Of a stretch of 64,000 nucleotides of DNA, positions 17,755 to 22,339 are shown piece after piece. A program made the position numbers and the translations under genes. Positions within the stretch are counted from its first letter, which is position 1. Every line of letters begins with the position of its first letter. The stretch is from Arctopsyche grandis. Taxonomy: Eukaryota > Arthropoda > Insecta > Trichoptera > Hydropsychidae. The notes under the pieces were generated by a model. The model saw only the letters and a list, made by a program, of their open reading frames with translations, did not search any database and was not told the DNA's origin. Location of the stretch: positions 18,448,501 to 18,512,500 of the forward strand of contig NC_135358.1 in the NCBI RefSeq assembly GCF_051622035.1, in the 5' to 3' direction.

Positions 17755-17975
17755 TCTAATCTATAATTTGGAAAGAGACTTTGTATGTAAATATCCTTGG
17801 TCGTCGTCGTCGTCGTCTTCGTCGTCTTCGTCGTCTTCGTCCGTAGATCGGTGACGTCATCGAACACGTGATTCGATTTTTTTTTTTTTTCGATCCATGG
17901 GCGCCGATTTTTTTTTTCGTTTCAATGGATTCACCCCCGCGGGGGCGCAAGGCGAGTAGCTTCATGGGGCCCCGC

Positions 17976-19270
17976 CAGGGGCGCCACAAGGGGCGCAGCC
18001 CCGTGGGGCTCAAAAGGGGGCGCCACAAGGGGCGCAGCCCCGTGGGGCCCCGAAGGGGGCCCGGGGGGCCCAGCCTCATGGGGCGCAGCCCCATGGGGCT
18101 CAAAAGGGGGTGCCACAAGGGGCGCAGCCCCGTGAAGCCCCGAAGGGGGCGCGGGGGGCCCAGCCTCATGGGGCTCAAAAGGGGGCGCCACAAGGGGCGC
18201 AGCCCCGTGGGGCCCAGCCTCATGGGGCGCAGCCCCATGAGGTTCAAAAGGGGGCGCCACAAGGGGCGCAGCCCCGTGGGGCCCCGAAGGGGGCCCGGGG
18301 GGCCCAGCCTCATGGGGCGCAGCCCCATGGGGCTCAAAAGGGGGCGCCACAAGGGGCGCAGCCCCGTGGGGCCCCGAAGGGGGCCCGGGGGGCCCAGCCT
18401 CATGGGGCGCAGCCCCATGGGGCTCAAAAGGGGGTGCCACAAGGGGCGCAGCCCCGTGAAGCCCCGAAGGGGGCGCGGGGGGCCCAGCCTCATGGGGCGC
18501 AGCCCCATGGGGCTCAAAAGAGGGCGCCACAAGGGGCGCAGCCCCGTGGGGCCCCGAAGGGGGCCCGGGGGGCCCAGCCTCATGGGGCGCAGCCCCATGA
18601 GGCTCAAAAGGGGGCGCCACAAGGGGCGCAGCCCCGTGGGGTCCCGAAGGGGGCCCGGGGGGCCCAGCCTCATGGGGCGCAGCCCCATGGGGCTCAAAAG
18701 GGGGCGCCACAAGGGGCGCAGCCCCGTGGGGCCCCGAAGGGGGCCCGGGGGGCCCAGCCTCATGGGGCGCAGCCCCATGGGGCTCAAAAGGGGGTGCCAC
18801 AAGGGGCGCAGCCCCGTGAAGCCCCGAAGGGGGCGCGGGGGGCCCAGCCTCATGGGGCGCAGCCCCATGGGGCTCAAAAGGGGGCGCCACAAGGGGCGCA
18901 GCCCCGTGGGGCCCCAGCCTCATGGGGCGCAGCCCCATGAGGCTCAAAAGGGGGCGCCACAAGGGGCGCAGCCCCGTGGGGCCCCGAAGGGGGCCCGGGG
19001 GGCCCAGCCTCATGGGGCGCAGCCCCATGGGGCTCAAAAGGGGGCGCCACAAGGGGCGCAGCCCCGTGGGGCCCCGAAGGGGGCCCGGGGGGCCCAGCCT
19101 CATGGGGCGCAGCCCCATGGGGCTCAAAAGGGGGCGCCACAAGGGGCGCAGCCCCGTGGGGCCCAGCCTCATGGGGCGCAGCCCCATGGGGCTCAAAAGG
19201 GGGCGCCACAAGGGGCGCAGCCCCGTGGGGCCCCGAAGGGGGCCCGGGGGGCCCAGCCTCATGGGGCGCA
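17976..19270 (+). repeat. 90-bp GC-rich tandem array (block A), copy 1
   Basis: About 14 units, some shortened, of a 90-bp repeat that contains GGGGCGCAGCCCCATGGGGC and CAAAAGGGGGCGCCACAAGG. Units repeat exactly every 90 bp for example at 18303 and 18393. Because 90 is a multiple of three, long frames stay open on both strands. Confidence 0.95.
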
Positions 19271-20256
19271 AGCCCTAATAGGCATTAACTAAGGGGGGCG
19301 AAGCCCTAGACGGCAATTAATCATGGGGGCGCGGAGGGGCGAAGCCCTAAAAGGCAACTGATCATGGGGGCGAAGCCTTAGACGGCATTTAATCATGGGG
19401 GCGCGGAGGGGCGAAGCCCTAAAAGGCATTAACTAAGGGGGGCGAAGCCCTAAACGGCAATTAATCTTGGGGGCGCGGGGGGCGAAGCCCTAAAAGGCAA
19501 CTGATCATGGGGGCGAAGCCTTAGACGGCATTTAATCATGGGGGCGCGGAGGGGCGAAGCCCTAAAAGGCATTAACTAAGGGGGGCGAAGCCCTAAACGG
19601 CAATTAATCTTGGGGGCGCGGGGGGCGAAGCCCTAAAAGGCAACTGATCATGGGAGCGAAGCCTTAGACGGCATTTAATCATGGGGGCGCGGAGGGGCGA
19701 AGCCCTAAAAGGCATTAACTAAGGGGGGCGAAGCCCTAAACGGCAATTAATCTTGGGGGCGCGGGGGGCGAAGCCCTAAAAGGCATTAACTAAGGGGGGC
19801 GAAGCCCTAGACGGCATTTAATCATGGGGGTGCGGAGGGGCGAAGCCCTAAAAGGCATTAACTAAGGGGGGCGAAGCCCTAAACGGCAATTAATCTTGGG
19901 GGCGCGGGGGGCGAAGCCCTAAAAGGCAACTGATCATGGGGGCGAAGCCTTAGACGGCATTTAATCATGGGGGCGCGGAGGGGCGAAGCCCTAAAAGGCA
20001 TTAACTAAGGGGGGCGAAGCCCTAAACGGCAATTAATCTTGGGGGCGCGGGGGGCGAAGCCCTAAAAGGCATTAACTAAGGGGGGCGAAGCCCTAGACGG
20101 CATTTAATCATGGGGGTGCGGAGGGGCGAAGCCCTAAAAGGCATTAACTAAGGGGGGCGAAGCCCTAAACGGCAATTGCTCATGGGGCGTGGAGGGGCGA
20201 AGCCCTAGAAGGCAAAGGCTCAGGGGGGCGCCGAGGGCGAAGCCCTAGAAGGCAAA
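19271..20256 (+). repeat. GGGGCGAAGCCCTAAAAGGC tandem array (block B), copy 1
   Basis: Roughly 35-75-bp variants alternating GCATTAACTAAGGGGGGCGA, GGCAATTAATCTTGGGGGCG and GGCAACTGATCATGGGGGCG, arranged in a higher-order repeat of a few hundred bases (the same three-part order recurs at 19414, 19565, 19704). Confidence 0.9.
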
Positions 20257-20688
20257 AAAAAATTTTGATTTTTTTTTTTGATTTTTTAAAAAATTTTTTT
20301 TTAATTTTTTTTTTATTTTTTTTTTATTTTTTTTTTTAATTTTTTTTTTTGATTTTTTTTTTATTTTTTTTTTTAATTTTTAAATTTTTTTTTAATTTTT
20401 TTTTTTTTTTAATTAAATTAGCTTAGTCATGTTTAAGCGGTTTATATTATAAACACTGAGCGAAGCCGGGTAATACAGCTAGTCTAATCTATAATTTGGA
20501 AAGAGACTTTGTATGTATCCTTGGTCGTCGTCTTCTTCGTCGTCTTCTTCGTCGTCCGTAGATCGGTGACGTCATCGAACACGTGATTCGTTTTTTTTTT
20601 TTTCGATCCATGGGCGCCGATTTGTTTTTTTCGATTCAATGGATTCACCCCCGCGGGGGCGCAAGGCGAGTAGTTTCATGGGGCCCCG

Positions 20689-21551
20689 CCAGGGGCGCCA
20701 CAAGGGGCGCAGCCCCGTGGGGCCCCGAAGGGGGCCCGGGGGGCCCAGCCTCATGGAGCGCAGCCCCATGGGGCTCAAAAGGGGGCGCCACGAGGGGCGC
20801 AGCCCCGTGGGGCCCCGGGGGGGCCCAGCCTCATGGGGCGCAGCCCTATGGGGCTCAAAAGGGGGCGCCACAAGGGGCGCAGCCCCGTGGGGCCCCGAAA
20901 GGGGCCCGGGGGGCCCAGCCTCATGGGGCGCAGCCCCATGGGGCTCAAAAGGGGGCGCCACGAGGGGCGCAGCCCCGTGGGGCCCCGGGGGGGCCCAGCC
21001 TCATGGGGCGCAGCCCCATGGGGCTCAAAAGGGGGCGCCACAAGGGGCGCAGCCCCGTGGGGCCCCGTGGGGCCCCGAAAGGGGCCCGGGGGGCCCAGCC
21101 TCATGGGGCGCAGCCCCATGGGGCTCAAAAGGGGGCGCCACAAGGGACGCAGCCCCGTGGGGCCCCGAAGGGGGCCCGGGGGGCCCAGCCTCATGGGGCG
21201 CAGCCCCATGGGGCTCAAAAGGGGGCGCCACGAGGGGCGCAGCCCCGTGGGGCCCCGGGGGGGCCCAGCCTCATGGGGCGCAGCCCCATGGGGCTCAAAA
21301 GGGGGCGCCACATGGGGCGCAGCCCCGTGGGGCCCCGAAGGGGGCCCGGGGGGCCCAGCCTCATGGGGCGCAGCCCCATGGGGCTCAAAAGGGGGTGCCA
21401 CAAGGGGCGCAGCCCCGTGGGGCCCCGAATGGGGGCCCGGGGGGCCCAGCCTCATGGGGCGCAGCCCCATGGGGCTCAAAAGGGGGCGCCACAAGGGGCG
21501 CAGCCCCGTGGGGCCCCGAAGGGGGCCCGGGGGGCCCAGCCTCATGGGGCG
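20689..21551 (+). repeat. 90-bp GC-rich tandem array (block A), copy 2
   Basis: About 10 units, several of 75-81 bp where part of CCCCGAAGGGGGCCCGG is lost (for example CCCCGGGGGGGCCCAGCC at 20813). The unit sequence is the same as in copy 1. Confidence 0.93.
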
Positions 21552-22108
21552 CAAGCCCTAATAGGCATTAACTAAGGGGGGCGAAGCCCTAGACGGCAAT
21601 TAATCATGGGGGCGCGGAGGGGCGAAGCCCTAAAAGGCAACTGATCATGGGGGCGAAGCCTTAGACGGCATTTAATCGTGGGGGCGCGGAGGGGCGAAGC
21701 CCTAAAAGGCATTAACTAAGGGGGGCGAAGCCCTAAACGGCAATTAATCTTGGGGGCGCGGGGGGCGAAGCCCTAAAAGGCATTAACTAGGGGGGGCGAA
21801 GCCCTAGACGGCATTTAATCATGGGGGTGCGGAGGGGCGAAGCCCTAAAAGGCATTAACTAAGGGGGGCGAAGCCCGAAACGGCAATTAATCTTGGGGGC
21901 GCGGGGGGCGAAGCCCTAAAAGGCATTAACTAAGGGGGGCGAAGCCCTAGACGGCTTTGAATCATGGGGGCGCGGAGGGGCGAAGCCCTAAAAGGCAACT
22001 GATCATGGGGGCGAAGCCCTAAACGGCAATTGCTCATGGGGCGTGGAGGGGCGAAGCCCTAGAAGGCAAAGGCTCAGGGGGGCGCCGAGGGCGAAGCCCT
22101 AGAAGGCA
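21552..22108 (+). repeat. Block B tandem array, copy 2
   Basis: Same GGCGAAGCCCTA-centred units as 19271-20256, ending with GGGGCGCCGAGGGCGAAGCC before the T-rich block. Confidence 0.9.
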
Positions 22109-22339
22109 AAAAAAAAATTTGATTTTTTTTTTTTTGATTTTTTTTAATTTTTTTTTTGATTTTTTTTTTGATTTTTTTTTTTGATTTTTTTTTATTTTTT
22201 TTTTATTTTTTTTTAAATTTTTTTTTTAAATTTTTTTTTTTAATTTTTAAATTTTTTTTTTTTTTTTAATTAAATTAGCTTAGTCATGTTTAAGCGGTTT
22301 ATATTATAAACACTGAGCGAAGCCGGGTAATACAGCTAG

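Follow-up and report, generated by a model that had tools for sequence, protein, structure and literature searches.

Most sampled neighbours in head-to-tail Helitron chains of Arctopsyche grandis have closer relatives elsewhere in the genome

How do two complete transposons come to lie head to tail with no host base between them? The question is raised by a 64,000-nucleotide stretch of the Arctopsyche grandis genome ("the window", C4:18448501-18512500 of a 475.7-Mb assembly in 189 contigs; other loci are likewise given as contig and position). Here two complete non-autonomous Helitrons, E1 (17755..20482, 2728 bp) and E2 (20483..22339, 1857 bp), both on the forward strand and both with TC...CTAG ends, meet exactly at CTAG-TCTAATC. 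Together they split one (TA)n tract, of which the left half (17648..17754, called as a tandem repeat) places an A before E1, and the right half (22340..22355) begins with T after E2. An earlier note on this DNA described two complete abutting elements in one such tract, as the coordinates confirm, and explained them as a dimer from rolling-circle transposition of one element. The available parts of the literature count Helitrons in head-to-tail order as evidence for rolling-circle transposition and for bypass of the terminator. We used the order of units in the internal arrays as a lineage barcode, which makes sibling origin testable pair by pair.

E1 and E2 are of different lineages, and for both there are elements on other contigs that are closer than the two are to each other. 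E1 aligns to an element at C5:27186129 with no mismatch in 2727 positions, the two differing by one 90-bp array unit and a further 1 bp, and to one at C1:11855702 with 1 mismatch in 2403. The closest sampled relative of E2, at C1:11858106, differs from it at 17 of 1840 positions (0.92%). Between E1 and E2 there are 73 mismatches in 1851 positions (3.94%) and 14 gaps, and the order of their array units differs; the last 80 bp are identical. The C5 element lies outside head-to-tail chains, with an opposite-strand member 86 bp off and a T as its 5' flank. Among the 17 elements whose units were coded, the 27-unit order of the second array of E1 is identical on C5 and C1, and the order of the 15 units in E2 recurs on C1 and C8. 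Because each order is thus found at two other places, the two lineages probably existed separately before the dimer. The marker CCGAAAGGGGCCC was confined to E2 and C1:11858106 (2 of 57 sampled elements).

Most of the neighbours that were sampled likewise have closer relatives elsewhere. The elements, all recovered by fuzzy match to the ends, came from four sources: 28 places among the 40 scored matches to the first 301 bp of E1 (eight cut out by the search and 20 chosen by hand, of which two overlap); the 195 junction places, of which the first 30 by contig order (on C1 and C2) were used; four extensions; and the window itself. Out of about 1000 exact 5' ends in the genome, the alignment comparison included 66 elements of at least 400 bp, the k-mer test 61 of at least 900 bp, and an earlier test of neighbour likeness 37 longer than 1400 bp. 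End divergence (D) was limited to 20 in the k-mer test and the flank count and to 5 in the set of 57 young elements, and shorter or more diverged members were dropped. In 23 of the 29 neighbour pairs compared, each member had a relative elsewhere that was closer than its partner, a figure that wider sampling could only strengthen, by bringing relatives elsewhere closer and not further. In three pairs no sampled element elsewhere was as close to either member as its partner, as at C3:16292495 and C3:16289624 (1 mismatch in 2763), and true rolling-circle siblings may account for a minority of pairs. By k-mers, 5 of 54 tests picked out the neighbour as the nearest relative. Identity between neighbours was not raised in the tail or in the head (p = 0.61 and 0.13), and the earlier likeness test, on 13 pairs, gave p = 0.33.

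A genome search with the element ends, which the earlier note had recommended as a way of finding dimers, recovered 195 junctions of the CTAG-TCTAATC type (at most 2 mismatches; control 0). Random insertion into AT sites, at the density of 0.118 per base found in the window, predicts 0.004-0.01 such junctions, and the observed frequency is about four orders of magnitude above that expectation. With the same tolerance of 2 mismatches, the exact head-to-head joint was found 0 times genome-wide; one near head-to-head pair lies at C4:12076235, beside an altered 5' end. The longest sampled chain, at C8:17044332-17060974, consists of eight complete elements of 2279, 3328, 1890, 2817, 1787, 1724, 1578 and 1240 bp. 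At C1:11853102-11860369, three young members are followed by a diverged 409-bp member at the 3' end. There are also 26 junctions before a sister 5' subfamily and 6 behind an ACTAG end, which are unusable for polarity since most of their upstream members are unseen and the count of ACTAG-type 3' ends (174) does not serve as a matching denominator. As a separate observation, junctions about 500 bp apart at C2:33131330-33139264, where the first place has members of 501 and 515 bp, are found again at near-equal spacing after 6.7 kb, as if the stretch had been duplicated.

We think it likely that the chains grow mainly by insertion exactly at the end of a resident element, and that in the window E1 inserted onto a resident E2. 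The order of events would be that E2 was in place first and that E1, whose lineage was active more recently, then inserted with the host A on its left and the TC of E2 on its right, leaving A, E1 with its CTAG, E2 with its TC, and T. A plain AT target would permit the opposite orientation too, and we therefore propose that a Rep/helicase acting in trans nicks between A and TC where a resident element begins, the same cut with which transposition would be initiated. The 5' end of the incoming strand would then be joined to the 3'-OH of the host A, and the incoming CTAG to the 5' T of the resident. An exact, same-orientation junction without an intervening host base would result, and repetition of these steps would produce chains.

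The unequal divergence of E1 and E2 from their relatives in the C1 pair suggests, from sequence comparison, that E1 is the younger: 1 mismatch in 2403 upstream against 17 in 1840 downstream (Fisher p = 6.9e-6). Thirteen of the 17 downstream mismatches lie in the T-rich tail, where the alignment is less sure; outside the tail the counts are 0 of 2170 and 4 of 1610 (p = 0.03). The diverged 409-bp member at the 3' end of the C1:11853102-11860369 chain likewise suggests a younger-upstream order there. Consecutive insertion has been argued for a maize Helitron pair (PMC2267711, in the text available). The adjacent maize elements (AF466202) resemble those described here in their CTAG-TC contact, with a G/T junction, and in having unlike members, but they are a single pair, whereas 195 junctions and sampled chains of up to eight are present in A. 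grandis.

A broader proposal, which we put forward tentatively and with somewhat more doubt than conviction, is that the transposase strongly prefers resident 5' ends in an orientation-specific manner, that unlike complete elements are thereby stacked into satellite-like chains, and that tandem Helitrons elsewhere, for which a rolling-circle concatemer is the usual reading, may often have the same origin. Were resident 5' ends preferred as targets, the clustering of Helitrons would be explained, elements that carry arrays would have a route to form long GC-rich (guanine plus cytosine) blocks, and the target step of Helitron transposition would become testable from genome sequence. We found no genome-wide test of sibling origin for head-to-tail Helitron junctions in the open-licence literature, as far as its accessible text extends.

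Several observations weigh against growth by insertion at resident ends. The k-mer likeness of neighbours, 0.484, is slightly higher than that of elements at different loci, 0.405 (permutation p = 0.003, 27 pairs). The younger-upstream polarity was not established in the survey: it was seen in 18 pairs against 11 (p = 0.26) or 19 against 10 (p = 0.14), and a comparison of first with last members of chains gave 10 against 4 (p = 0.18). The lack of head-to-head joints may be due in part to perfect palindromes that are unstable or misassembled. To these must be added a second occurrence of an E1-like element joined to an E2-like one, and a number of pairs in which crossed halves fit better, both of which are taken up with the explanations that they favour.

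Replication past the 3' terminator of one donor, with two tandem copies inserted together, would give exact junctions in a single orientation, as observed, and tandem Helitrons of bats and Bombyx have been ascribed to terminator bypass (PMC4067079, in part). The three pairs that are closest to each other are also what it predicts. For the window pair we nevertheless regard this origin as very improbable, given members that are 3.94% apart, with unlike array orders and closer relatives on other contigs; the explanation offered in the earlier note is abandoned on these grounds and on the 23 pairs that behave in the same way. The head-to-tail arrays of bats, Bombyx and plant centromeres (PMC4067079, PMC12628747, as far as the available text goes) are similar in arrangement, but they are ascribed to terminator bypass or to truncated circles, whereas the members sampled here are complete and mostly unlike. 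Ordinary unequal crossing-over was rejected as a source of junctions; it would be expected to leave (TA)n between members, and there is none.

An excised circle with a CTAG-TC joint could recombine homologously into a resident element, yielding two head-to-tail elements with their halves exchanged. Exact junctions, one orientation, unlike members and a need for similar sequence are all accounted for by such an event, and circular Helitron forms have been reported (PMC5876387, PMC5148889, in the parts available). Of 27 pairs, the crossed phase indeed suited 8 better (for the pair at C6:19599149 and C6:19601619 the difference is clear) and the observed phase 15, with 4 ties. We judge it unlikely for the window pair, which fits the observed phase far better (0.93/0.52 against 0.47/0.44), and in which E1 matches another copy from end to end, so that a crossover would need to have fallen in shared termini. 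Alternatively, an older dimer could have moved as a unit. The same two lineages stand in the same order at C1:11855702 and C1:11858106, as if a dimer had been transposed, and the distribution of CCGAAAGGGGCCC is in keeping with this. The unequal divergence of the two halves argues against it, also outside the T-rich tail, as does the fact that the C5 copy is nearer to E1 than the C1 copy is, and we consider joint movement distinctly unlikely. Insertion of E1 at the 5' end of a resident E2 remains our preferred reading of the window.

What kind of element is it that stacks in this manner? E1 and E2 are two members of one young, non-autonomous family of canonical Helitrons, as indicated by their TC...CTAG ends, insertion between A and T, and lack of a target duplication. 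The young sampled elements end in GCTAG in 57 of 57 cases and begin with TCTAAT in 56 (the remaining one with TCTTAA), although recovery by fuzzy match to the ends biases the sample toward constant ends. The outer flanks are A on the 5' side in 26 of 28 and T on the 3' side in 28 of 28. The expectation of the earlier note that ends would be constant and target duplications absent was thus borne out. Genome-wide, the base before the exact 5' end is A in 677 of 973 cases and another base in 296; a hand count of non-A bases among 100 places listed gave 56 G, 34 T and 10 C. Near the 3' end there is a weak candidate hairpin, GC-GAA-GC, 12 nt before CTAG (GCGAAGC at 20460-20466 in E1 and 22317-22323 in E2), with an A/T palindrome further in. 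In canonical Helitrons a hairpin-forming palindrome of 16-20 bp is expected there; the last 60 nt fold no better than shuffled sequences (z = 0.35).

The same earlier note had called the elements Helitron/HINE-like, of which the first half stands and the second does not. HINE and Helentron classes were rejected because insertion is between A and T rather than T and T (among the exact 5' ends, those with a T before them are a minority) and because subterminal inverted repeats are lacking: between the first 70 nt of E2 and its reversed last 130 nt the longest exact match is 6 bp, and no subterminal inverted repeat of about 11 bp was found. A terminal-inverted-repeat transposon with target duplication was rejected as well, there being no terminal inverted repeat longer than 6 bp in E2 and outer flanks of A and T. 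Going by the portions of the papers available, the insect Lep1/Hel1 non-autonomous Helitrons share the 5'-TC, the 3'-CTRR, A-to-T insertion and lack of target duplication (PMC4038834, PMC6544945). Their non-autonomous forms are 134-344 bp long, whereas the 57 young elements sampled here have a median length of 2.2 kb because of their two GC-rich arrays; this comparison is one of structure, not sequence. The Helentron-associated DINE-1 and Cg_HINE are similar in having a microsatellite near the 5' end, central repeats and short conserved ends (PMC2374699, PMC7492417, PMC4067079, each in part), but they have subterminal inverted repeats of their own, and the DINE-1 target is T and T. Database comparisons yielded no further relatives: six open reading frames of the window matched 0 Pfam families, an Rfam search of the window gave 0 matches, and exact end and array patterns occurred 0 times each in collections of viral contigs and of genome contigs. 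A text search of the literature with the end sequence returned 0 results, and one with the array cores no transposon paper by title.

Both elements have the same five-part order, as had been stated. E1 opens with its 5' end, where a GTC-rich microsatellite and T runs are found (17755..17931); array 1 (17932..19262), array 2 (19263..20248), and an A/T-rich tail with the 3' end (20249..20482) follow. The corresponding parts of E2 are at 20483..20645, 20646..21545, 21546..22102 and 22103..22339. Array 1 has units mostly of 69-100 bp and a GC content of 77% in E1 and 79% in E2, in a window of 35% GC. In array 2, units of about 31 and 41 bp alternate, with a period of 72/143, and the GC content is 59-60%. 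That there are two arrays was correct, but their supposed unrelatedness is uncertain: their local similarity is equalled by 43 of 1000 shuffles, and GGGGCGNAGCCC is present in both. Resemblance of the 3' end to the two arrays does not exceed what shuffled sequences reach (equalled by 96 and 557 of 1000). Among the units folded, array 1 alone did better than shuffles (z = -3.0, against 0.3 for array 2). As an observation apart, the mini-hairpin motif d(GCGNAGC), reported to be extraordinarily stable (PMC4686876, in part), occurs 2458 times on the element strand of the 57 young elements and 0 times on the other, N being A or C in all but two; it is present in both arrays and in the 3' end.

The GC-rich, satellite-like interior noticed earlier is real; the further idea of a satellite being born was not shown by arrays studied inside elements only, with an array-2 order in E1 that is the same on two other contigs. 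Arrays inside Helitron and Helentron elements, and the spread of satellites by them, are known in Drosophila and oyster (PMC7492417, PMC12628747, PMC4067079, PMC2374699, in the text available), and what is new here is that copies on different contigs preserve the same array-2 order. Array 2 in two members of the C8 chain (C8:17046611 and C8:17051829) resembles two arrays fused end to end, and fusion by recombination between neighbours may lengthen arrays.

Three diverged members of the family, all flanked by A and T and with TC...CTAG ends, also lie in the window. One of 659 bp (2707..3365, reverse strand) holds array 2 only, by eye an array of units like those coded in E1 and E2; one of 401 bp (7092..7492, reverse strand) has, by eye, about two array-2-like units; and one of 272 bp (6635..6906, forward strand) contains (TA)n and is without a GC array. 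Array 1 is restricted to E1 and E2 among these five members. Comparison of the short and long members suggests that array 2 lengthened as the family evolved.

Copy numbers indicate a large family, with a long form that looks recent. The exact 5' end is present in 973 copies and the exact 3' end in 1554, with 0 for each reversed-pattern control, and the first 301 bp of E1 were matched at 100% over their full length in 20 of the 40 scored (E1 included) out of 1374 candidates. A sister 5' end, TCTNATATATAATNTNNAAAGAGAC, was counted in 5001 copies (control 0), about five times the young type, the two patterns differing in length. No autonomous partner had been seen in the window, and none of its 26 open reading frames of at least 120 codons is of Rep/helicase length, the longest crossing the arrays and frames that run off the window ends not being listed. 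The Helitron-like N domain PF14214 has 16 matches in the genome, mostly in one C3 stretch with a 9032-bp period. Rep/helicase loci are at C3:20.71-20.74 Mb, C13:5.36 Mb and C9:4.09 Mb, and a partner would be recognisable by TCTAATCTATAATTTGG together with GGGTAATACAGCTAG; the 3.9 kb read upstream of the domain match on C13, the one locus examined, contain no family 5' end. At C3:20710636-20738225 there are four copies of one Rep/helicase N-domain match and three of another, with stops, at the 9032-bp period, and these repeats are perhaps tandem autonomous Helitrons.

Elsewhere in the window, a 180-codon open frame on the reverse strand (62708-63250), without a Pfam match, is one that we take to resemble the end of a non-LTR (long terminal repeat) reverse transcriptase. 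A 0.33-kb repeat occurs at 17321-17655 and 27983-28311 (99.7% identical), with a (TA)n tract ahead of each copy; a (TA)n tract follows only the copy at 17321-17655 and is the one interrupted by E1 and E2. This repeat is possibly another transposon.

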